From assembly GCA_019637115.1 (NCBI GenBank), contig JAHBWH010000036.1:1-54250 (forward strand): a stretch of 54,250 nt of DNA. Direction: 5' to 3'. The notes under the pieces are model-generated. The model made no database searches, was not told the DNA's origin, and worked only from the letters and a program-made list of their open reading frames with translations. A program made the translations under genes and the position numbers. This DNA is from Myxococcales bacterium (lineage in GTDB: Bacteria; Myxococcota_A; Polyangia; Polyangiales; Houyiibacteriaceae). This document shows positions 41,237 to 53,081 of this stretch, piece after piece (the first letter of the stretch is position 1; the number at the start of each line of letters is the position of its first letter).

Positions 41237-43918
41237 ATGGACCCCCAGCGCGAGATCGAAACCCGGCCACCGAGGGGCTCGACCCCCCCCGAGAGCGCCG
41301 AGGCCGGCGCGGGCGCCGCCGAGGGCGAAGCCGCCAAGCCCTACGAGCCGAACGGGCTCCTCCGCTGGCTCTACCGGCGCTTCTTCGCCCACATCGTCGT
41401 CGACGACGCCTGGAGCGGGGTCGTGCGCGAGAGCGCCCGTCGCGGGGTCGTCGTGTACGTCATGCGCTCGCTGTCCTTGCTGGACTTCCTCTGCCTCGAC
41501 TTCCTCCTCAAGCGCTTCGGCTTGCCCCTCGTCCGCTTCGTCAACGACCTCGGCCTGTGGATCCTCGAGCCCTTCGGCCGCGGCGGCCGCCGGCTCCGCT
41601 TCCGCCGGCAGATCCCCGAGGACCGGGCGCTCTCGGACGTCGTCCGCGAGCGCTACAGCGCCCTGCTCTTCTTGCGCCGCCCCCCGAAGATCGGGCGACG
41701 CGCGCGCAAGGGCGCCGCGCTCGAGATCGACCTCATCCGGACCTTGGTCGAGACCCAGCGCGCGATGGACGAGCCCATCCTCCTCGTGCCCCAGACCTTC
41801 GTCTGGTCGAAGCTGCCACCACGCCGCGAGCCCAGCCTCGTCGACCTCTTCTTCGGGCCCGTCGAGTGGCCGGGCCGCGTCCGCGTGTTCTTCCAGTTCC
41901 TCCTGAACTTCCGGAACGCGCTGCTCCGCTCGGGGGAGCCCTTCGATCTCCAGGCCTTCATGGCCGACAACCCACAGCTCGACGACGCCGCGCTCGCCGA
42001 CAAGGTCCGCTACGCGCTGCTGCGGCGGATGGAGCGCGAGCGCACCCTGGTGCTCGGGCCGACGAAGAAGAGCCCGACCCGCATCCAAGACGAGCTGCTG
42101 CGCTCCCCTCGCGTCCGCGCCCACATCGAGAAGGAGGCGCGCACGCGCAAGGTGAGCGTCGCGAAGGTGGAGGCGGGGGCGCGCAAAGAGCTCCGGCGCC
42201 TCTGCGCCAACCAGCTCCCCTACATGCTGCGGATCCTCAGCGGCGCGCTCGGCTGGGTCTTCAACCGGATCTACGACGGCGTGGTCGTCGACAAAGAGGG
42301 CCTCGACCGGGTGCGCGACGCGGCGCGGGACGGGACGCTCGTCTACCTCCCGAGCCACAAGAGCCACGTGGACTACCTCGTGCTCAGCGCGGTGCTCTAC
42401 CGCAACGCCCTGAGCGCGCCCCTCATCGCCGCCGGCGAGAACCTCTCGTTCTGGCCGCTCGGCCCGATCCTCCGGCGCGGCGGCGCGTTCTTCATCAAGC
42501 GCTCCTTCAAGGGCAAGAAGCTCTACTCCGTGCTCGTCGACGCCTACATGCGGCGACTCATCGTCGAGGGCTTCGCGCTCGAGTTCTTCCTCGAAGGTGG
42601 TCGCTCCCGTACGGGCAAGCTCCTCGCGCCGAAATTCGGCCTGCTCACGATGGTCGTCGACGCGGCGCTGAAGCTGCCGATGCGGAAGGTCTATTTCGTC
42701 CCCGTGAGCATCGGCTACGAGCGCATCATCGAGGAGCGCTCGTACGTGCACGAGCTCGGCGGGGGCGAAAAGCAGAAGGAGAACGTCGGCGGGCTCCTCA
42801 AGACCTCGCAGGTCCTCCGCTCGAAGTACGGCCGCCTCTACGTGCAGTTCGGCAAGGTGCTGAGCTTCGACGAGGTCCTCGAGTGGACGGTGCGCGACGA
42901 GCGCGCCCGTCGGCAGGGCGAGGCGCCCGCGCTCCCCGCCGACCCCATCCTCAAAGACGGCTTGAGCCCGGCCGAGCGTCGCGCCGTCGTCCAGCGGGTG
43001 GCCCACCGCGCGAGCTATCAGATCGACCGCGTCACCGTGGTCACGCCCGCGGCGCTCGTCGCCTCGACGCTCCTCGTCCTCCCGCGCCGCGCGATCACGA
43101 GCGAGCTCCTCGTCGAGACCGCGTCGACGCTCGTCGGCGCGCTCCGCCGCTCGAAGGCGCGTGTCGCGGACGCGCTCGTCGCCGAGGACGGCGAGACCGT
43201 CCGCGCCGACACGGTGGAGCAAGCCGTGCAGCTCTTCCTCGACGCCAAGCTCGTGCGCGCCGACACGCGCGAGGGCCGCCGAACCCTCCACGTCCCCGAT
43301 CCCCGGCGGCTCGCGCTCGAGTACTACAAGAACAACATCCTGCACTTCTTCGTCCCGAGCGCGCTCATCGCCGCCTCGCTCGCGCGAGAAGCCGGCGCGC
43401 TCCCCCTCGACGCGCTCCGCGAGCGTGTCCGGTGGCTCTCGCGGCTCTTCAAGTACGAGTTCATGTACCGCGCCGACGCGGCCTTCGAGCGCATCTTCGA
43501 CGAGGCGCTCGCGCTCATGATCGACGGCGGCGAGCTCGTCCGTGACGACACGCAGGAGGAGCACCCGGTGGTGCGCGTAGCAGCGACCGCCGCCGGCCGC
43601 GACACCGCCCTCTACGCGACGATGCTGCGCGCCTACTTCGAGGCCTACCGCTTGGCCGCGCGCTCGATCGGCGCGGTCGAGGGCGAGGTCGAGCGCCGCG
43701 CCTGGCTCAAGCGCACGCTCGCGCTCGGACAGCGCCTCTACCTCGCGGGCGAGATCGAGCACCGCGAGTCGATCTCGAAGGACAAGCTCGAAGGCGCGCT
43801 CGCGTCGTTCAAGGATCTCGGCGTCGTTCGCTTCGACGGCGACGCCATCGTCCGAGGCGAAGCCGACCCGCACGAGATCCACGATCGACTCGCCGACCTC
43901 CTCGCCCGTGACGCGTGA
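41237..43918 (+). CDS. plsB: glycerol-3-phosphate 1-O-acyltransferase, PlsB family
   Basis: An 893-aa membrane-associated enzyme that puts the first acyl chain on glycerol-3-phosphate. Acyltransferase motif I is His374-x4-Asp379 in PSHKSHVDYL; then GAFFIKRSF (motif II), FFLEGGRSRTGKLL (motif III) and VYFVPVSIGYE (motif IV). Length is typical of PlsB; the N-terminal ~40 residues are low-complexity and the C-terminal ~280 residues form the helical PlsB tail. The ATG at 41237 is the first in frame and follows a -10-like box. Together with glpD, psd and pgsA this window carries much of the phospholipid pathway. A weak hairpin (CCGCT/AGCGG) follows the stop. Confidence 0.94.
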   Translation: MDPQREIETRPPRGSTPPESAEAGAGAAEGEAAKPYEPNGLLRWLYRRFFAHIVVDDAWSGVVRESARRGVVVYVMRSLSLLDFLCLDFLLKRFGLPLVRFVNDLGLWILEPFGRGGRRLRFRRQIPEDRALSDVVRERYSALLFLRRPPKIGRRARKGAALEIDLIRTLVETQRAMDEPILLVPQTFVWSKLPPRREPSLVDLFFGPVEWPGRVRVFFQFLLNFRNALLRSGEPFDLQAFMADNPQLDDAALADKVRYALLRRMERERTLVLGPTKKSPTRIQDELLRSPRVRAHIEKEARTRKVSVAKVEAGARKELRRLCANQLPYMLRILSGALGWVFNRIYDGVVVDKEGLDRVRDAARDGTLVYLPSHKSHVDYLVLSAVLYRNALSAPLIAAGENLSFWPLGPILRRGGAFFIKRSFKGKKLYSVLVDAYMRRLIVEGFALEFFLEGGRSRTGKLLAPKFGLLTMVVDAALKLPMRKVYFVPVSIGYERIIEERSYVHELGGGEKQKENVGGLLKTSQVLRSKYGRLYVQFGKVLSFDEVLEWTVRDERARRQGEAPALPADPILKDGLSPAERRAVVQRVAHRASYQIDRVTVVTPAALVASTLLVLPRRAITSELLVETASTLVGALRRSKARVADALVAEDGETVRADTVEQAVQLFLDAKLVRADTREGRRTLHVPDPRRLALEYYKNNILHFFVPSALIAASLAREAGALPLDALRERVRWLSRLFKYEFMYRADAAFERIFDEALALMIDGGELVRDDTQEEHPVVRVAATAAGRDTALYATMLRAYFEAYRLAARSIGAVEGEVERRAWLKRTLALGQRLYLAGEIEHRESISKDKLEGALASFKDLGVVRFDGDAIVRGEADPHEIHDRLADLLARDA

Positions 43919-44025
43919 TCCGCTCTCAGCGGAAGACGCCCTACCCCGTTTGGATGAGGTCACCTGACACCGCCGGATTCATGGCGTGAGGTCGGTGGTG
44001 CAGGGTGTATTCTTACTCGGGGACC

Positions 44026-44793
44026 ATGGCGGGACAGAACTTCGTCGACTGGCTGGCGCGCGCACAGCCTCCGAGACCCGGCTTCCGCGCCACGCGAAGC
44101 CCCTCGCAGATCCCCCGCGTCCTCAGCTCCGGCGACCTCCGCGTCGTCTACCAGCCGATCGTCGATCTGCGCCGTGATCGCATCTACGCTTACGAGGCGC
44201 TCGTGCGAAGCGACGCCCCCGACTACCAAGGGCCGCCGGCGCTCTTCGAGACGGCGATTCGCGCGGAGGTCTGCGGCGCCCTCGGCCGCGTCGTGCGCGA
44301 GCTCGCGACCCTGAGCTGCCCCGACTACCCGCTGTTCCTCAACATCCACCCGAACGAGTTCGACGAGGGCTGGCTCGTCCAGCCCGACGATCCGATCTTC
44401 CTCCACTACCACCCGGTCTACCTCGAGATCACCGAGTCGGTGCCGCTCAGCCACTTCGCGCTCTGCCACTCGGCGCTGCGCGAGATCCGCAGCAAGGGCG
44501 TCTTGCTCGCGGTCGACGACCTCGGCGCGGGCTACTCGAACTTGAAGTACATCGCCGACCTCTCCCCGGAGGTGGTGAAGCTGGATCGGAGCCTGGTGGC
44601 GCGGCTCCAGCACGACGCGCGCATGCAGCTGCTGCTGCGGCACCTCGTGCGGCTCTGCGAGGAGCTCGGCGCGCGTGTCGTCGCCGAGGGCATCGAGACC
44701 GCCGAGGAGCTCGCCGCCGTGCGCGCGGCGGGCGCGCACTACGGACAGGGATACTTCCTCGCGCGACCGAGCTTCCCGCCGCCGATGATCTGA
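44026..44793 (+). CDS. stand-alone EAL-domain c-di-GMP phosphodiesterase
   Basis: A 255-aa cytoplasmic protein consisting of an EAL domain after a ~35-residue N-terminal stretch. The catalytic signature is complete: Tyr-EALVR (57-61), NIHPNEF, LEITES, the DDLGAGYSNL loop, VKLDRSLV with the catalytic Lys, VAEGIET and QGYFLARPS. It should hydrolyse c-di-GMP to pGpG. No GGDEF, PAS or REC domain is attached. A TATTCT box at 44008-44013 lies 12 nt before the ATG; a GTG at 44005 in the same frame overlaps that box and is less likely. Convergent with the Cys-rich microprotein gene. Confidence 0.92.
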   Translation: MAGQNFVDWLARAQPPRPGFRATRSPSQIPRVLSSGDLRVVYQPIVDLRRDRIYAYEALVRSDAPDYQGPPALFETAIRAEVCGALGRVVRELATLSCPDYPLFLNIHPNEFDEGWLVQPDDPIFLHYHPVYLEITESVPLSHFALCHSALREIRSKGVLLAVDDLGAGYSNLKYIADLSPEVVKLDRSLVARLQHDARMQLLLRHLVRLCEELGARVVAEGIETAEELAAVRAAGAHYGQGYFLARPSFPPPMI

Positions 44794-44809
44794 TCGAGCC
44801 GGCGCTCGC

Positions 44810-45028
44810 TCAACGGAGCGCGCGGGCCGCTGCGTGGAGCGTCCGCATGCAAGGCTCGCAGCCCGTCTCACAGCACGCGGGCCAGGTGTTCTCGGGGCGG
44901 TCCAGCAGCGCCAGCACGAGGAAGCGGTCGTCCCCCTCGAGCCCGTGCGCGCGGCAGACCTCGTCCAAACACGCGTCGGCCTCCGAAGTCGGCTCGTCCA
45001 GACGCGCCTCGTCCGGTCCCTCCTTCAT
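44810..45028 (-). CDS. 72-aa Cys-rich microprotein
   Basis: A short frame whose ATG overlaps the stop of the preceding membrane-protein gene (ATGA), a strong coupling signal. It encodes an acidic N-terminus (MKEGPDEARLDEP), a helix, and a C-terminal Cys cluster in WPACCETGCEPCMRTL (four Cys within nine residues), with two more Cys upstream (residues 20 and 25). This looks like a metal-binding or redox-active small protein. Family not recognised. It is the last gene of the lnt-containing set. Confidence 0.6.
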   Translation of the reverse strand: MKEGPDEARLDEPTSEADACLDEVCRAHGLEGDDRFLVLALLDRPENTWPACCETGCEPCMRTLHAAARALR

Positions 45029-45537
45029 CGGCCCCGCTCGCGGGGGGGCCTGACCAGCTCCGCGTCCTCGACGTCGACCACCAGCGCGGCGGCGCGCGCC
45101 TTCGGGGGTGCGGCCTGCTTTCTGGGCGCGCGCGGCGTGTCCGCGCCGCCGCCCGTGTGGTCGAGCTCCACGAGGATCCCGAAGAGCAAGGACACGATCG
45201 TCGACACCACGAGCGGGATCTGCGTCCACGGCGTGCCCGCGTTCACGCCTGGGAGGGCGAAGGGAACGCCAAAGCCAGCCCAGGTCGACGTGATCCAGTA
45301 CAGCAGCGCGCCGAAGCCGAGGCCAGCCACGGCCTTGAGCACGCTCTCGATCCACGCGTCCTGCTGCCACGGCGGCTTGCCGACGAGCACGCCCGACGTG
45401 GCCCCGGCCCCCATCGCGACGAGGTAGAGCAACAGCCCTTCCCCCTGGGTCCAGCCGAGCCCCCAGTGGAACGCCGCGCCGATCGCGCCGCCGAGGAGCG
45501 CGCCCTTCAGGAGCCCGAGAACGAATCGCCTGAGCAC
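45025..45537 (-). CDS. hypothetical inner-membrane protein
   Basis: A 170-aa protein starting at GTG 45537, where the hydrophobic region begins; the longer upstream frame overlaps lnt and is Arg-rich. Four membrane helices are likely: RFVLGLLKGALLGGAIGAAF, GLLLYLVAMGAGATSGVLVG, SVLKAVAGLGFGALLYWI and IPLVVSTIVSLLFGILVE. The C-terminal ~45 residues are cytoplasmic, basic then acidic. Downstream of lnt by about 55 bp and overlapping the Cys-rich gene. Function unknown. Confidence 0.72.
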   Translation of the reverse strand: MLRRFVLGLLKGALLGGAIGAAFHWGLGWTQGEGLLLYLVAMGAGATSGVLVGKPPWQQDAWIESVLKAVAGLGFGALLYWITSTWAGFGVPFALPGVNAGTPWTQIPLVVSTIVSLLFGILVELDHTGGGADTPRAPRKQAAPPKARAAALVVDVEDAELVRPPRERGR

Positions 45538-45592
45538 CCGTCCATCGTGCCCGCATCGGGCCGGCTCCGCCAACGCGAAGACGCTCGGGCGC

Positions 45593-47242
45593 TCACGCCA
45601 GATCGCGGTGGTCGCGACGGCGACGCCCGAACGCCATCCACGCCATCGCCACGAGCGCGGCAAACCCAGGCCAATCCCCCACGTGCGCGTAGAGCGTGGT
45701 GCCCTCGAGGAGCGGGACGCTGCGAACCATCTCGCCCCGCTCGAAGACCCCGATTTGGCCCGTCACGCGGCCCACCGGATCCACGAACGCGCTCACCCCG
45801 CTGTTGGTGGAGCGGACGAGCGCGCGGTGATGCTCGACCGCGCGGAACTTCGCGAGCGCGAGGTGGATCCACGGCTCGTGCGTGTCCCCGAACCAGGCGT
45901 CGTTCGTGATGTTCACGAGCAGGTGCGGGTCCCCCTCGCGGACGGCCTGACGGGTGAAACCGGGCAGCACATCTTCGTAGCAGACCAGGGCGCTCATCCG
46001 GACGTCCCCGTGGTCGGTGGGCAGGACGAGCGGCCGCACGTGCGTCCCCGGCGTGAAGCGCCCACTGTGCGGCGACCAATCGTAGAGGATGGGGAACGTC
46101 TCTCCGAAGGGCAGGTACTCCCCGAACATCAGGAGGTAGGTCTTGTCGTAGAGGCCGAGCACCTCGCCCTCACCGCTCGTGAGGTACGCGGTGTTGTACG
46201 CGTAGGTGCGGTCGGGTCCCTCGCGGCGGCGAAGCCCCCCGAAGAGCAGCGGCGTGTGGACGGGGCCGAGCACGCGGCGGAGGTCGCGCATCCCGTCCGG
46301 GAGGAAGAACGTGTAGGCCGACTCCGGCCAGACCAGCAGATCCATCTCGTGCTCGGCCTCGAGCCGCAGGCTCTGCTCGACGTGCCGCTGGTGCCCTTCG
46401 AAGGGGTCGTCACGCTTCGAGAAGATCCCCATGTTCACCTGGACGACGCCCACGGAGATCGTCCTCGCCTCGGCCACGCGCGCGTCGACCTCGTGGATCC
46501 GCCAAACGCCATAGAGGAGCGTCGCCGCCACGCCGCCGATCGCCAACGCCGGCACGAGGCGCGGGAGCCGCTCGCGGCGCCACGCGGCGCGCGCCACCTC
46601 GTAGAGCGCGCCGTTCACGGCCATCACGACGGCGCTGATGAGCATCGGCCCGCCGAGGTCCGCCGTCTGGATGAAGACCGGGAGGTCGTGGAAACCCGTC
46701 GCCAGGTACGACGGGAAGAGCACCGGGTGGAGCAGCTCCATCGTGAGCAGCGCGGGCACCGCCGCCGTCGTGACGCGGAAGCCGCCCTGCCGCGCGCGCC
46801 GGTAGAGCCAGTAGATCAGCATCTGCTGTGCGCCGTGGTAGGCGAAGAAGACGCTGGCCATCGCCCAGCACGCCCAGCGCGGGAAACCCGAGAAGACCTC
46901 GAGCATCTCGACGAGCCAATAGTAGCCGCCCGTATAACCGACGAACCCGTGCACGAAGCCGAGCGCCAGCACGCGCCGATGGCTCGCGCGGGGCTCTGCG
47001 TCGATCACGTAGAACATCGGCAGGAAACACACGAACGCGAAAGGCCACCAGCTGAACCCCGCAAAACCCAGGCATTGCATCGCCCCGCCGAGCGCGGCGA
47101 GCGCCAGGTGGGCCCGGCGACGCCCCTTCGAGAGCGTGTCGGCGTCCGGCGGGCTCGGGGTGGCCGCGACCGGGGCCGCCCCCCCGCCCTCGCTCTCCTT
47201 CGCCCGCGGTCGAGCGCGCTGCTGCTTGCGCTTGCTACCCAT
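45593..47242 (-). CDS. lnt: apolipoprotein N-acyltransferase
   Basis: A 549-aa inner-membrane enzyme adding the third acyl chain to lipoproteins. After a basic, unstructured N-terminal ~40 residues come several membrane helices (WWPFAFVCFLPMFYVIDAE, ACWAMASVFFAYHGAQQML and others), then the nitrilase-like domain with catalytic Glu307 (VWPES), Lys367 (YDKTYLLMFGEYLPF) and Cys421 (VCYEDVLPG). NDAWFGDTHEPWIHLALAKFRAVE is characteristic. The last helix lies near residues 525-540. The gene sits 6 bp after the response regulator. Many predicted lipoproteins in this window would be its substrates. Confidence 0.95.
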   Translation of the reverse strand: MGSKRKQQRARPRAKESEGGGAAPVAATPSPPDADTLSKGRRRAHLALAALGGAMQCLGFAGFSWWPFAFVCFLPMFYVIDAEPRASHRRVLALGFVHGFVGYTGGYYWLVEMLEVFSGFPRWACWAMASVFFAYHGAQQMLIYWLYRRARQGGFRVTTAAVPALLTMELLHPVLFPSYLATGFHDLPVFIQTADLGGPMLISAVVMAVNGALYEVARAAWRRERLPRLVPALAIGGVAATLLYGVWRIHEVDARVAEARTISVGVVQVNMGIFSKRDDPFEGHQRHVEQSLRLEAEHEMDLLVWPESAYTFFLPDGMRDLRRVLGPVHTPLLFGGLRRREGPDRTYAYNTAYLTSGEGEVLGLYDKTYLLMFGEYLPFGETFPILYDWSPHSGRFTPGTHVRPLVLPTDHGDVRMSALVCYEDVLPGFTRQAVREGDPHLLVNITNDAWFGDTHEPWIHLALAKFRAVEHHRALVRSTNSGVSAFVDPVGRVTGQIGVFERGEMVRSVPLLEGTTLYAHVGDWPGFAALVAMAWMAFGRRRRDHRDLA

Positions 47243-47248
47243 CGACGT

Positions 47249-47635
47249 TCAGCGCTTGAGCCCGAGGACCTTGCTCACCTTCTCGAGCAGCTCCTCGCGC
47301 TGGAAGGGCTTGGTGAGGTAGTGCCGCGCGCCCGCCTGGATCCCGGCGATCACGTCCTTCGGGGTCCCCTTGGCGGTCAGGAAGATCACGGGCACCCGGC
47401 TGAGCTTCGGATCCTGCTTGAGCCGCTGCGCGAGCGCGAGCCCGTCGAGGCGCGGCATCATGACGTCGCTGAGCACGAGGTCGGGGACGGTCCCCGAGTC
47501 GCGCAGCCAGACCAAGGCCTCCATGCCGTCGATGGCGAGGTGCACGTCGGCGATCCCTGCCAGCATGTGCCCGAGCATCTTCCGGAGCGCGTCGTCGTCT
47601 TCGACCACGAGCACTTGAACGCGGCGTTCGGCCAT
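47249..47635 (-). CDS. single-domain response regulator
   Basis: A 128-aa receiver-only protein (CheY-like). Acidic pocket Glu12-Asp13-Asp14, phospho-acceptor Asp57 in LVLSDVMMPRLDG, Thr in VIFLTAKG, and Lys in YLTKPFQREELL are all present. ATG 47635 was chosen because it begins the receiver fold and follows TACATC (47645-47650) by 9 nt; an earlier GTG-like start is unlikely. No output domain, so it probably acts by protein contact. It lies between a Ser/Thr kinase and lnt on the same strand; the partner histidine kinase is unknown. Confidence 0.93.
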   Translation of the reverse strand: MAERRVQVLVVEDDDALRKMLGHMLAGIADVHLAIDGMEALVWLRDSGTVPDLVLSDVMMPRLDGLALAQRLKQDPKLSRVPVIFLTAKGTPKDVIAGIQAGARHYLTKPFQREELLEKVSKVLGLKR

Positions 47636-47644
47636 GAGGCCCGA

Positions 47645-47650
47645 GATGTA
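47645..47650 (-). promoter_or_regulatory. putative -10 box of the response regulator gene
   Basis: On the minus strand TACATC, preceded by TGC, lies 9 nt before the ATG at 47635 with no ribosome site in the gap. Confidence 0.4.
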
Positions 47651-47667
47651 GCAGCCCACCCGCCGGT

Positions 47668-47760
47668 GTGCTCGTGAGCGCCGTGCTCGTGGGCGCCGTG
47701 CTCGTGAGCGCCCTGCTCGTGAGCGCCCTGCTCGTGAGCGTCCGTGTGCTCGTGAGCGTC
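47668..47760. repeat. six 15-bp tandem repeats at the kinase 3' end
   Basis: Five adjoining 15-bp units (consensus GTGCTCGTGAGCGCC) cover 47668-47742, and a sixth, 18-bp unit covers 47743-47760, touching the stop codon of the Ser/Thr kinase gene (47759-47761). The core CTCGTGAG is itself nearly palindromic. Confidence 0.85.
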
Positions 47761-48727
47761 AAGCCGCGTCGTGGTGGACGGTCGTCGTCGCCATATCGAG
47801 GCCCCGCCCGTGGCGGAGGCTCGCCGCGAGCCGGCGCTCGATCTCCCGCGGGCTCGCGAGCATCGGCGCGATGGCCCGGGAGAGCGCCCGCGCGGACGGG
47901 ATCCGATCCTCGCGGCGGCGCGCGAGCATGCGCGCGACCAGGGCGTCGACCCCCTCGGGCACCGCGGGCGCGTTGAGGCCGACGCGCGGGGCGTCCTCTC
48001 GGATGATGCGGCGCAGGAGGTTCGTGACGGTGCTGCCCGTGAAGGGCAGCCGCCCCGCGAGCGCCTCGTAGACCACGACGCCGAGACCGAAGATGTCGGC
48101 GCGCGCGTCGACGTCGGGGTCGCCGCTCGCTTGCTCGGGGGAGACGTAGCTCGGCGTGCCGAAGACCCGCCCGCGCTCGCGCTCACGCTCGTCGGTCGGC
48201 GCCGTCTCGGCGGCGCAGACGCCGAAGTCCAGCAGACGGACCACGAGCTCGCCGTCGGGGGAGCGGTCGAGCACGATGTGCTCGGGCTTGACGTCGCGGT
48301 GCACGTAGCCGAACGCGTGGGCGCGGTGGAGCACGTCGCAGACGCGGCGGACGATGGCCAGGGTCGACGGCACGTCGAGGATCCCGACGCGGCGCAGCAG
48401 TCGGTTCATCGACTCGCCGCCGATGCGCTCGAGCACCAGGTAGGGCGAGCCGTCCGGCAGCAGCCCCTCGTCGAGCACCGGCACGATCGCGGGGTGCGCC
48501 ACGCGACGCGCGACCTCTCCCTCTCGCCGCAGGCGCCGCACGAGGTCGGCGTTGTACGCAAAGACCGGGCGCAGCGTCTTGACGACGAGCGGCCGGTCTT
48601 CTCGGTTGGGGCCGAGGGGCGTGGCCTCGAAGACGACGCCGGTCCCTCCGACTCCGATGCAAGCGCCGACGCGATACCGACCCTCCAGGATCGTGCCGCG
48701 AAGCTCTGCGCGTTCGTCCGATGCCAT
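47759..48727 (-). CDS. Hanks-type Ser/Thr protein kinase
   Basis: A 322-aa soluble kinase from ATG 48727. Glycine loop GVGGTG (25-30), catalytic Lys50 in LVVK, His143-Arg-Asp145 in VHRDVKPEHIVLD, DFG in RLLDFGVC, and GTPSYVSPEQ as the activation-segment end. The catalytic set is complete. No transmembrane helix; the ~45-residue C-terminal tail (REIERRLAASLRHGRGLDMATTTVHH) has no known domain. The kinase stop lies inside a 15-bp repeat array, so the tail end may vary between strains. Followed by the response regulator gene, which raises possible cross-talk, though this is only positional. Confidence 0.92.
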   Translation of the reverse strand: MASDERAELRGTILEGRYRVGACIGVGGTGVVFEATPLGPNREDRPLVVKTLRPVFAYNADLVRRLRREGEVARRVAHPAIVPVLDEGLLPDGSPYLVLERIGGESMNRLLRRVGILDVPSTLAIVRRVCDVLHRAHAFGYVHRDVKPEHIVLDRSPDGELVVRLLDFGVCAAETAPTDERERERGRVFGTPSYVSPEQASGDPDVDARADIFGLGVVVYEALAGRLPFTGSTVTNLLRRIIREDAPRVGLNAPAVPEGVDALVARMLARRREDRIPSARALSRAIAPMLASPREIERRLAASLRHGRGLDMATTTVHHDAA

Positions 48728-48794
48728 GGCCCGGAAAATCGGGCACTCGGATCGAAGGGTCAAAAAAGCGACGCGCGAGCGCCGCTCGCGCGCA

Positions 48795-49619
48795 TCAGGC
48801 CTTGCGGCGCGGCTCGAGATCGAACACGCGGCGCCCCTGACCATCGAGCCGCGGACCGCGGACCACGAAGGGGTCGAGCTTGATGAGCTTTCGCCGAGCG
48901 GTCGGGAGCTTCACGAGCAGGCCGCCGTCTTCGTGGACGCGCTCCACCTTGCAGAGCCCGAACTGACGGTGGCTCACCCAATCGTTGCGCTCGGGCGTGG
49001 GCTCGTCGAGGTCGACGACGGCCTTCGAGGGCCGCGCGCGAACCCCGGGCAGCGGCTCCTTCGGCAGCAAGGGCACCGTCGGCGTCGGCTTGGCGCGACC
49101 TCGCGGCGCGGGGCGCGCGGGGACGCGGCTGGCCGCGTCGGAGACCGCGGCGACCTGCGCCCACCCGAGCGCGCCTTCGTCGCTCGAGCCCGTCGAGGCA
49201 GTCGAGGCCGTCGAGGCCGCCACGACGCTCGCCCACGCGAGCGGCTCATCCGTATCGCCGACCTCGTCGCCGACCTCGTCGCCGTCGCTCACCTCGTCGA
49301 AGAGGACGGCGGACATCGCGCCGCTCACGACGATCGCCGAGGCCAAGCGACCGCCGCGCGTCACGCCATCGGCGACCAGCGTCGCGTGCACCACGACCTC
49401 GTCTCCGCGCACGGTCGCCGTGAGCCGCAGCGCCTCCGCGAAGGGGAGGCGCTTTTGCCCACCTGCGGCGTCGATCAACGTCACCTCGGCGAGGGTCGCC
49501 GCGCCCTCGACGAAGCCCCCGGCGCCCCGGCCGGCGAGCACCGTGAGCACGTCGGGGAGTCGATCCCCTGCGCCGAGCTGGAGCGCGAGGCGCTCGGACT
49601 CACCTTCGAGAACGAACAT
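48795..49619 (-). CDS. PPC/DUF296-like protein with AT-hook-like motif and SH3-like C-terminus
   Basis: A 274-aa protein from ATG 49619. Residues ~10-110 follow the PPC (DUF296) pattern: ALQLGAGDRLPDVL, GFVEGAATLAEVTLID, EVVVHATLVADG and TRGGRLASAIVV. Next is an acidic stretch, then two copies of a short L-x-W-A-x-V-x-A-x-S motif (127-137 and 151-161). A basic Pro-rich linker contains APRGRAKP (171-178), close to an AT-hook core. Residues ~213-252 (WVSHRQFGLCKVERV...RKLIKLDPF) look like a small SH3/Tudor-like barrel. In plants PPC joins AT-hooks in DNA-binding AHL proteins. All domain calls are from pattern recall, so the DNA-binding idea is inference. No ribosome site is evident. Confidence 0.6.
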   Translation of the reverse strand: MFVLEGESERLALQLGAGDRLPDVLTVLAGRGAGGFVEGAATLAEVTLIDAAGGQKRLPFAEALRLTATVRGDEVVVHATLVADGVTRGGRLASAIVVSGAMSAVLFDEVSDGDEVGDEVGDTDEPLAWASVVAASTASTASTGSSDEGALGWAQVAAVSDAASRVPARPAPRGRAKPTPTVPLLPKEPLPGVRARPSKAVVDLDEPTPERNDWVSHRQFGLCKVERVHEDGGLLVKLPTARRKLIKLDPFVVRGPRLDGQGRRVFDLEPRRKA

Positions 49620-49765
49620 GGCGCCGAACGTGACCCGCGGGACGGCGACCCGCAACGAGCACGTCGTCCAGTCCCTCGCCGCAGGACCGGCCGAAGCCAA
49701 TTCGAGGAGGCGGCCCATTCGGGGAGGTAGGGCCGAGATCGAGGTCGAGGACCGCGATCAACCAG

Positions 49766-50434
49766 TCAAGACGCCTGTGGCGAGGTACTAGCCGTCGCGG
49801 CCTCGTCTTCTTCCGCGAGGCGTTTCTCCTTCGCCTCGACCGCCTCGACGAAGAGCTTGATGTACTCGCCCGCGCTGGTGATCGCGAAGAAGACGCTCAT
49901 GTAGAGGATGACGAGCCCCACCTCGGCCAGGTCCACCGTCGTCTGGTAGACGAAGAAGTCGACCTCGTAGGGGTGGTAGACGATCAACATCAGGATCGCG
50001 ACCATCTGGAGCGCGGTCTTGTCCTTGCCGCCCTGCCCGGCCGCCATGACCACCCCCTCGCTCATCGCGATGGTGCGCAGCGCGGTGATGCTGAGCTCGC
50101 GCCCGACCATGACGATCACGGCGACGACGCCGAGGAGCGGCAGCCGCCCGAGGTAGGCGAGGAAGACCAAGGTCGCCATCACGAGCAGCTTGTCGGCGAG
50201 CGGGTCGAGGAACTTCCCGAGCACGCTGATGAGCCCCATTCGGCGGGCGAGCCAACCGTCGAGGAAGTCGGTGACGGCGGTGCCGATGTAGAGCATCGCG
50301 GCCCAGAAATTGGCCTTCGGCGTGCCATCCGCCATCAGCCAGAGGACGGCCGGGATCATCACGATGCGGGCCATCGTGAGGAGGTTCGGGAGGTTGATGG
50401 CGTCCTCGCGGATGGTCCGCCGCTTCGTGGCCAT
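49766..50434 (-). CDS. pgsA: CDP-diacylglycerol-glycerol-3-phosphate 3-phosphatidyltransferase
   Basis: A 222-aa inner-membrane enzyme making phosphatidylglycerol phosphate. The CDP-alcohol phosphatidyltransferase motif is exact: Asp59-Gly60-x2-Ala63-Arg64-x8-Gly73-x3-Asp77-x3-Asp81. NLPNLLTMARIVMIPAVL at the N-terminus and four to five membrane helices fit the family. An acidic C-terminal tail (EAKEKRLAEEDEAATAS) is longer than usual. It starts 9 bp after the TPR-AIM24 gene on the same strand. Confidence 0.95.
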   Translation of the reverse strand: MATKRRTIREDAINLPNLLTMARIVMIPAVLWLMADGTPKANFWAAMLYIGTAVTDFLDGWLARRMGLISVLGKFLDPLADKLLVMATLVFLAYLGRLPLLGVVAVIVMVGRELSITALRTIAMSEGVVMAAGQGGKDKTALQMVAILMLIVYHPYEVDFFVYQTTVDLAEVGLVILYMSVFFAITSAGEYIKLFVEAVEAKEKRLAEEDEAATASTSPQAS

Positions 50435-50443
50435 GCCGCGTCC

Positions 50444-51841
50444 TTACCGCACTTCGGGCGCCGCGCCGAGCAGGACGAGGCCGTCCCCCCGAAAACCGAG
50501 CGCTGGGGCCTGCGCCGAATAGGGCGCGGTCCCGCGTCGAGCGTTCGGGAAGAGCCGCCCCGACCACCCGACCAGGCGCTCGGGGTCGACCCGCAGCTCC
50601 TCGCCCTCCCGCACGCGCATCGCGAAGGGAGCCCCTGGCAGCGCGAGGATCACGACGCCGTCTCCATGAAGCTGGGTGATGGTCACCGGCTGACCCGCGA
50701 GCGGGAGACTCGCGGTCTCGAACGAGACCCGATCGTCGAACGCGAAGAGGAACGACTCACGCACGAAGAGCGCGCCCTCCCCGAGGCGCGCGGCGACGAA
50801 GCGTTGCCCCGGAGGCGCGTGGATCGCGGCCGCCACGGGGCCGCGCCACCGCATCAGGGGGTCGCGATCGCCGAGCGGCGTCTCGTGCTCGCGCCCCCTC
50901 GTTCGACGCAGGACGAGCGTGGCGCGGAGCTCGCCGCGGACGGCGACGAGGCCGCTGAAGCGCGCGCAGACCTCGGTCTCGGTGCTCAGCAGCAGCGTCC
51001 CGTCCTCGGTCAGGCTGAGCGGCACCTCGGGCGGGGGGCTCACCGTCCAATCGTCCAGCAGGCTCGAGAGCACGCGCGGCTCGAAGGTGGGCCGCGCGAT
51101 GGGAGGCGGAGGTTTGGGGGGGACGAAGAGGCTCCCGGGCTCGGCGAGCTGCCACGCGCCGCTGGGCTTGCGCCGATCGACGCCGGCCTCGACGGCGAGC
51201 TGGGGTCGTTCAGAGTCGAGGCGCTCGATCGCCTCCTCGGCGGCGGAGCGCATCGCCGCGCGATCGCGCGCCGCGAGGCTCTCCTCGGCCTCGCGAGACG
51301 CCAACGTCACGGCGTCATCCGCGTCGCTGGAGCGACCGAGCTCCTCCTCCATACGGCGCGCCATCGACGCCTGGCCCCCACGGAGGAAGGCCTCGCGCGC
51401 CTCCGCCACGCGCCCGAGGCGCCACTGCACGAGGCCGAGGTATCCCCACGCGCGCTCGTGGTCGGGCTGGACCCGCAGCGCCTCGTGCAGATGACCGAGC
51501 GCTTCGTCGGCTTGGCCGGTCTTGAAGAGCGCGAGCCCGAGGTTCACGCGCAAGGTGCTCTCGCGCGGGAACGCCTCGACGAGGCGTCGCCAGATCTCAA
51601 TCGCCCGCGGGTAGACGCCGAGGCGGAAGTACACGCCAGCGAGCAGATCTTGGGACTTCGCGTCCTGAGGTTGAAGGGAGAGCGCGCGCTCGAGCTCCTC
51701 CTTCGCCTCGACGATCTGATCCTGGAGGAGCATCGTGCTCCCCCGATAGAGGTGATATAGAAAGTCGTCGCTGCGCTCGGTCTCCCCGCCGCCAGGCGAA
51801 ACCGCGACCCGTTCCGACCCATCACCGTTCGGAGACTCCAT
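50444..51841 (-). CDS. TPR protein with AIM24-like C-terminal domain
   Basis: A 465-aa soluble protein. Residues ~26-170 contain four tetratricopeptide repeats (LYRGSTMLLQDQIVEAKEEL, AGVYFRLGVYPRAIEIWRRL, LGLALFKTGQADEALGHLHEAL, LGLVQWRLGRVAEAREAFL). A Pro-rich linker (PPKPPPPIARP) leads to residues ~265-460, where strands such as LFVRESFLFAFDD, LHGDGVVILALPG and LRVDPERLVGWSGRLFP follow the AIM24 (TerD-fold-like) pattern. TPRs mediate protein contacts; AIM24 proteins have no settled bacterial function. A weak AAGG lies before the ATG. Co-directional with pgsA downstream. Confidence 0.78.
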   Translation of the reverse strand: MESPNGDGSERVAVSPGGGETERSDDFLYHLYRGSTMLLQDQIVEAKEELERALSLQPQDAKSQDLLAGVYFRLGVYPRAIEIWRRLVEAFPRESTLRVNLGLALFKTGQADEALGHLHEALRVQPDHERAWGYLGLVQWRLGRVAEAREAFLRGGQASMARRMEEELGRSSDADDAVTLASREAEESLAARDRAAMRSAAEEAIERLDSERPQLAVEAGVDRRKPSGAWQLAEPGSLFVPPKPPPPIARPTFEPRVLSSLLDDWTVSPPPEVPLSLTEDGTLLLSTETEVCARFSGLVAVRGELRATLVLRRTRGREHETPLGDRDPLMRWRGPVAAAIHAPPGQRFVAARLGEGALFVRESFLFAFDDRVSFETASLPLAGQPVTITQLHGDGVVILALPGAPFAMRVREGEELRVDPERLVGWSGRLFPNARRGTAPYSAQAPALGFRGDGLVLLGAAPEVR

Positions 51842-51944
51842 AGCTGCCTTGCCCGAGGGCAGCCGCAGCGTAGGGGAGCGCGGGGACGCGGGTCAACCGT
51901 CACCGCTGGCCGGCCTCGTGAGACCGTGCCAGGCTCGCCGCGCT

Positions 51945-52088
51945 GTGGTCCCTTGCGCCTCGAGCCTCCTCTTGCAGCCCGCTCCGACCTCCGGCGTCGT
52001 CGTCCCGGCTTGGCTCATCCTGGTCGGGGGCGGGGTCATCGCGCTGGCGGCGGCCATCGTGTTGATTCGCCGCGCGCGAAAGCGCTGA
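51945..52088 (+). CDS. possible small single-helix membrane peptide
   Basis: A frame ending 3 bp before the next ATG encodes VVVPAWLILVGGGVIALAAA as a clear membrane helix followed by the basic end RRARKR. The GTG at 51945 gives 47 residues; a TTG at 51849 would give 79, but that extension is low-complexity. The close link to the downstream YbhN-like gene supports translation, but a chance frame is possible. Confidence 0.4.
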   Translation: MVPCASSLLLQPAPTSGVVVPAWLILVGGGVIALAAAIVLIRRARKR

Positions 52089-52091
52089 CCC

Positions 52092-53081
52092 ATGACGGCT
52101 GAGCCCACGCCGCCGACCACGGCGACCGTCTCGCGAGGCCTCGGGCGTCAGCTGACGATCGCGACGCTCATCGGCGTGCTGGTCTTCGCGGCGCTCTCGC
52201 TCTATGGCGACGTGCGGGCGCTCGCGGCGAGCCTCGGGCGATACCACTGGCTCTCCTTCGTCGGCGGCCTCGCGCTCGCGACGGCGAACTACGCGATCCG
52301 CTTCCTCCGGTGGGAGGCGTATCTCTCGCTGCTCGAGGTCCGAATCGGGCGCCTCGAGAGCGCGCGCATCTTCCTCGCGGGCTTCGTGATGAGCATCACG
52401 CCGGGCAAGGTGGGTGAGGTCTTCAAGTCGGTGCTCCTGCACGAGTCTCGCGGGGTCCCGATCGCACGGACCGCGCCGATCGTGGTCGCCGAGCGCCTGA
52501 CGGACCTCTTCGCCCTCGTGCTGCTCACCGCCCTCGGCGCGCTCGCGTTGCCGAGCGGCGCGCTCGTCGCGGCGGGCGGCGCCGCCGTGGTCGGCGTGCT
52601 CTGGCTCGCGTGCGCGTGGCGCCCGCTCGGCGAGCTCGGGCTCCGGGTCGCGGCCCGTCTCCCGCTCATTCGGAAGATCGCGCCGAAGCTTCGCGAGGCG
52701 TACGACGCGCTGCAGGTGCTCGTCCGCCCGCGCGCGCTCGGCGTCGCGACGGTCCTCGCGCTCGCCTCGTGGTTCACCGAGTGTGTCGCGCTCCTCCTGA
52801 TCGCGCGTGGCTTCGGCGCAGACATCGGCTGGCTCGAGTCGACCTTCGCCTACGCCGCGCCGACCATCGTCGGCGCGCTCGCGATGATGCCGGGGGGCCT
52901 CGGCGTCACCGAGGCCGGCATGACGGGGATCCTGGAGGAGGTCGCGCACATGAGCACCGCCGACGCGACGGCGACGACGCTGCTCGTCCGCCTCGCGACC
53001 CTGTGGTGGGCGGTGTTGCTCGGGGTCATCGCGCTCGGCGCGCAACGTCGCGCGCTCCACCGCCGCGCGATCACCGACTGA
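52092..53081 (+). CDS. YbhN/UPF0104-type membrane protein (LPG synthase TM-like)
   Basis: A 329-aa polytopic inner-membrane protein with about eight helices. Family segments: LALATANYAIRFLRWEAYL, FLAGFVMSITPGKVGEVFKSVLL with the typical TPGKxGE loop, ERLTDLFALVLL, and MMPGGLGVTEAGMTG. This family includes the flippase-like membrane part of MprF and several lipid or isoprenoid carriers. There is no soluble synthetase domain, so it probably moves or protects a lipid rather than aminoacylating it. Starts 3 bp after the small membrane peptide. Confidence 0.88.
   Translation: MTAEPTPPTTATVSRGLGRQLTIATLIGVLVFAALSLYGDVRALAASLGRYHWLSFVGGLALATANYAIRFLRWEAYLSLLEVRIGRLESARIFLAGFVMSITPGKVGEVFKSVLLHESRGVPIARTAPIVVAERLTDLFALVLLTALGALALPSGALVAAGGAAVVGVLWLACAWRPLGELGLRVAARLPLIRKIAPKLREAYDALQVLVRPRALGVATVLALASWFTECVALLLIARGFGADIGWLESTFAYAAPTIVGALAMMPGGLGVTEAGMTGILEEVAHMSTADATATTLLVRLATLWWAVLLGVIALGAQRRALHRRAITD

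Follow-up and report, generated by a model that had tools for sequence, protein, structure and literature searches.

A PPC domain fused to a predicted PcrA/UvrD-type Tudor domain in Myxococcota: a putative scaffold at RNA polymerase

Results

The locus and its product

The whole stretch of DNA considered here (the window) comprises 54,250 nucleotides of a contig of a Myxococcales bacterium (JAHBWH010000036.1). It carries a minus-strand open reading frame, starting with the ATG at 49619 and ending with a stop codon at 48795, that encodes a protein of 274 amino acids with two predicted domains joined by a long linker. The features are as follows.

48795..49619, minus strand: whole gene of the PPC-linker-Tudor protein, 274 aa; stop codon at 48795-48797
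49290..49619, minus strand: N-terminal PPC/PCC (PF03479-type) domain, residues 1-110 (AlphaFold2, Foldseek, VIA; Pfam in relatives)
49011..49289, minus strand: disordered, mildly acidic linker, residues 111-203 (pLDDT about 43-70)
49212..49241, minus strand: Trp-Ala motif copy 1, LAWASVVAAS, residues 127-136 (W129, A133, and S136 conserved in at least 90% of the alignment)
49140..49169, minus strand: Trp-Ala motif copy 2, LGWAQVAAVS, residues 151-160 (predicted helix 153-163)
49086..49109, minus strand: APRGRAKP basic patch, residues 171-178 (not conserved)
48798..49010, minus strand: C-terminal PcrA/UvrD-type Tudor domain, residues 204-274 (structure prediction, HHalign, VIA)
49766..50434, minus strand: pgsA-type gene (CDP-alcohol phosphatidyltransferase), co-directional and directly upstream, 146 bases away

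The protein begins with MFVLEG, and the first residue of its relatives lies at the same place in the alignment, which makes a longer frame from the ATG at 49718 unlikely. A plus-strand reading of 48795-49619 was rejected as a shadow frame. All elements listed by the first-pass annotation, namely a PPC-like region, two motif copies, APRGRAKP, and a C-terminal barrel, lie within the 274-aa product.

By itself, the window protein matched nothing in Pfam, NCBIfam, or PDB sequences, and it gave no match as a single query in the contig scan; the assignments draw on its relatives or on structure prediction. A search of 317 genomes of the same class yielded matches in 90 at E <=0.01, and 30 of them form the alignment used below (A1). 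AlphaFold2 predicts two regions with confidence, residues 8-108 and 213-270 (pLDDT mostly 91-98 in both), separated by a low-confidence linker. The PPC and Tudor domain assignments are well supported.

The N-terminal PPC domain

The PPC-like region comprises residues 8-108, and the fold claimed for residues 10-110 was borne out. With the AlphaFold2 model, the eight Foldseek matches below 0.001 were all PPC proteins, and VIA-align gave Z values of 13.8-15.5 against seven PPC structures, followed by acetolactate decarboxylases at ~10. PF03479 (PCC) was matched by 22 of the 30 aligned relatives (best 3.4e-20), while the A1 profile found seven PPC structures in the PDB, including 2h6l at 3.9e-27. 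The N-terminal domain shares its predicted fold (VIA Z 14-15.5) and family profile with the single-domain PF03479 proteins AF0104 (2h6l), PH0802 (2dt4), and VCA0587 (2p6y).

The HxH and GGH histidines are what we take to be the metal-type site of PPC proteins, although PF03479 membership does not require them. Both HxH and GGH occur in 12/67 PPC domains, and the window protein has VVH and GGR, so that, in contrast to the single-domain prokaryotic proteins, it keeps only one of the three histidines. The loss of most of these histidines in this lineage argues against a metal-dependent enzymatic role. Solved prokaryotic PPC proteins form trimers, and by analogy the window domain, modeled here as a single chain, probably does so too.

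The linker

The linker (92 aa as delimited for the count) carries 12 acidic and 9 basic residues. Both Trp-Ala copies fit L-x-W-A-x-V-x-A-x-S exactly, and the one short helix that AlphaFold2 predicts in the linker, residues 153-163, covers the second copy. Conservation in homologs had been expected of both this motif and the PRGR patch, and it was found for the motif. The pattern W-x-x-[AVILM]-[AVILM]-x-x-[ST], composed after the motif had been seen, occurs in 48 of 72 distinct linkers, whereas 500 shuffles averaged 1.55 and never exceeded 7, which supports a conserved linear motif; as written, the pattern is absent from the other 24. Two or three copies are found mainly in the window's own family. 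The Trp-Ala helix presumably has a binding partner.

One relative (L003:1021-1938) has three tandem motifs in its linker, WGDVAAAS, WADVAVAS, and WAQVAKAS, which suggests that the copy number changes within the clade.

The basic patch had been read as AT-hook-like. PRGR or RGRP occurs in 3/72 linkers and is missing in the same-genus relative (L002); given this rarity, the AT-hook reading was rejected, and APRGRAKP is probably not an AT-hook.

The C-terminal Tudor domain

The SH3/Tudor-like end proposed in the first-pass annotation proved to be a predicted six-stranded barrel at residues 213-270, which kept its six strands when the C-terminal domain (CTD) was folded alone (mean pLDDT 89). Foldseek with the CTD alone returned nothing below 0.001 (best 0.04). 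The first VIA rows were the Tudor domains of PcrA (5dma, Z 5.7) and UvrD1 (9dqs, Z 5.6), and the UvrD CTD on an RNA polymerase lobe (7egs) gave Z 5.3; all three scores are low, on a par with those of other Tudor folds, and a Z below 8 may reflect a common arrangement only. Profile comparison was more discriminating: HHalign of 70 family CTDs with 29 PcrA/UvrD Tudor domains found in genomes of this class gave 96.4% (score 43.3, 44 columns), compared with at most 0.85% (score 11.2) in 30 column-shuffled controls. A single-sequence match to PF21196, the PcrA/UvrD Tudor family, was obtained for 1/20 CTDs (E 0.16).

The first-pass annotation had drawn a parallel with CarD, and a CarD-like regulator, combining a domain that binds the beta1 lobe of RNA polymerase with an AT-hook, has some evidence in its favor: CarD_TRCF_RID Pfam matches, albeit weak, occur in 15/20 CTDs (best 5e-4), and CarD itself (4kbm) gives a VIA Z of 4.8. 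Myxococcus xanthus CarD also combines a Tudor-like domain with a disordered region in a myxobacterial protein. However, HHalign against 17 CarD and Mfd RIDs gave 74% over only 23 columns, so the similarity to the CarD_CdnL_TRCF RID does not extend over the whole domain, and the profile comparison prefers the PcrA Tudor domain. CarD was therefore rejected as the nearest relative of the tail, which, on the sequence profiles, is closer to the PcrA/UvrD CTD. Moreover, the family has no conserved AT-hook, and the domain order is reversed, since in CarD the Tudor domain comes at the start and an HMGA-like DNA-binding tail at the end (PMC4374960). We regard a CarD-like regulator as very improbable, and the parallel as functional at most. 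As the Tudor end is closer to a bacterial CTD, it is not best described as "eukaryote-like" either.

The family CTD shares with the PcrA/UvrD Tudor domain (PF21196; 5dma, 9dqs, 7egs), its best profile match, a GDxVxHxxFG core, counterparts of the RNA polymerase-binding residues, and a tail position after a disordered linker. It differs in being attached to a PPC domain instead of a DNA-repair helicase, in an extra C-terminal strand and a basic end, and in the replacement of the second glycine of FGxG by cysteine (FGxC) in 66/70 CTDs.

Distribution of the architecture

The CTD profile matched 171/307 genomes of the class and 136/377 sampled genomes of the phylum, usually once per genome. These searches were a fast first look at Myxococcota, with many draft genomes, in which absences are not firm. 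Among 83 CTD-bearing frames across Myxococcota, 77 have a PPC domain by profile; in two others (L086 and L091) the N-terminus is PPC-like by eye, and one (L093) is cut by its contig. The carriers include Sandaracinaceae and Myxococcales genomes, and the combination of PPC and Tudor domains is recurrent in the sampled Myxococcota genomes.

A frame of 160 aa (L076) pairs the Tudor domain with the Trp-Ala motif and has no PPC domain by profile; it may represent PPC loss or a separate gene form.

Correspondence with RNA polymerase-binding residues

In PcrA, single alanine changes of H681, W684, K712, and L714 strongly reduce the pulldown of RNA polymerase (PMC5397179). According to the HHalign pairing and our reading of the published numbering, these positions correspond to H217, F220, K244, and I246 of the window protein. 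Across the family, the counterparts are H in 70/70 CTDs, F, L, or W in 70/70, K or R in 48/70, and hydrophobic in 70/70; in about 22/70 distant members, the K712-equivalent lysine is V, A, I, or C. The PcrA CTD docks on a hairpin of RpoB, the helicase interaction motif [VIL]DxxTGE[VIL][VILT] (PMC8318588). In the window's own genome, the RpoB sequence includes IDEETGEIL, in agreement with this motif. Since bacterial RpoB conserves the motif well, finding it here allows for an interaction without showing one. From these correspondences we infer that the CTD binds RNA polymerase.

Discussion

Prokaryotic PPC proteins have been described as stand-alone, single-domain proteins (PMC4209074). Compared with them, the protein described here adds a linker and a PcrA-type Tudor tail to the PPC domain. 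This domain is most familiar from DNA-associated proteins of plants. Plant AHL proteins share the PPC domain and carry an AT-hook in front of it (PMC4209074), whereas the window protein has no conserved AT-hook and gains a Tudor tail. The earlier claim that the architecture is unlike both groups therefore stands. A full-text search, covering few subscription journals, found no relevant paper on PPC or DUF296 with Tudor.

Taking together what was computed (the open reading frame, the predicted PPC fold, the PcrA-type Tudor kinship, the conserved residues, the linker motif, and the recurrent architecture), we propose, with a probability of roughly 0.5, that the protein is a cytoplasmic PPC scaffold, probably trimeric, whose Tudor tail links its partners to RNA polymerase. 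The PPC domain would trimerize like the solved prokaryotic PPC proteins, the long disordered linker would bind a partner through its short amphipathic Trp-Ala helices, of which there are one to three, and the Tudor domain would dock on the RNA polymerase beta subunit at its helicase interaction motif, so that one trimer would present three polymerase-docking tails. These tails might compete with PcrA/UvrD for the same RpoB hairpin. The window's own genome also has an 825-codon open frame with a PF21196 match, presumably UvrD/PcrA. The more specific picture of a trimeric hub that gathers as many as three RNA polymerases, or a single polymerase along with Trp-Ala-motif partners, and acts as a myxobacterial transcription-organizing factor in competition with PcrA/UvrD is, in our estimate, rather unlikely.

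Proteins with a Tudor-like fold have partners of other kinds too, as in NusG-S10 and histone readers (PMC5397179), and the tail could instead bind UvrB, another hairpin protein, or a modified lysine, which would place the protein in repair or another pathway. Besides RpoB, UvrB and further proteins carry this motif and are bound through it by the PcrA CTD (PMC8318588), and Tudor folds are general peptide binders (PMC5397179). Nevertheless, the genome possesses the RpoB receptor motif, and among the partners of such bacterial Tudor domains, RNA polymerase is the one best documented in the literature examined; we consider this alternative doubtful.

A similarly doubtful alternative is a DNA- or RNA-binding, nucleoid-type protein with a trimeric PPC core and basic tails, in which the Tudor domain and the RRK end would touch nucleic acid and not RNA polymerase. 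The PDB entries of several PPC proteins bear titles that call them putative DNA-binding, members throughout the family have a basic C-terminal end, and the UvrD CTD was reported as a non-specific DNA binder (PMC7585439). In contrast, no detectable DNA binding was found for the PcrA CTD (PMC8318588), the conserved face of the family CTD corresponds to the protein-binding face of PcrA (PMC5397179), and the PRGR patch is not conserved.

Our literature search found no tested function for a bacterial PPC protein. The recurrent fusion of PPC to an RNA polymerase-type Tudor domain offers a concrete hint of a possible role for such a protein at the transcription machinery, with residues and a receptor that can both be tested.

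Gene neighborhood

The pgsA gene lies in the short flank at 15 of the 30 loci, the window's own included; because it is adjacent in these and not in all, no function was drawn from the neighborhood. At one locus (L153), the predicted pgsA and PPC-Tudor genes overlap by four bases, which suggests co-transcription there. Downstream in the window lie genes for a kinase and a response regulator, neither of which had a BLAST match at 1e-5 in other near relatives, and lnt.

Directly upstream of pgsA, a minus-strand gene (50444-51841) encodes a TPR protein with an AIM24 (PF01987) match in its C-terminal part, and a similar gene stands beside pgsA in three relatives (L002, L009, and L029). Several lipid-related genes surround the PPC-Tudor gene, at 41237-53081 of the window, and encode a GPAT-like acyltransferase, Lnt, PgsA, and an LPG_synthase_TM protein.
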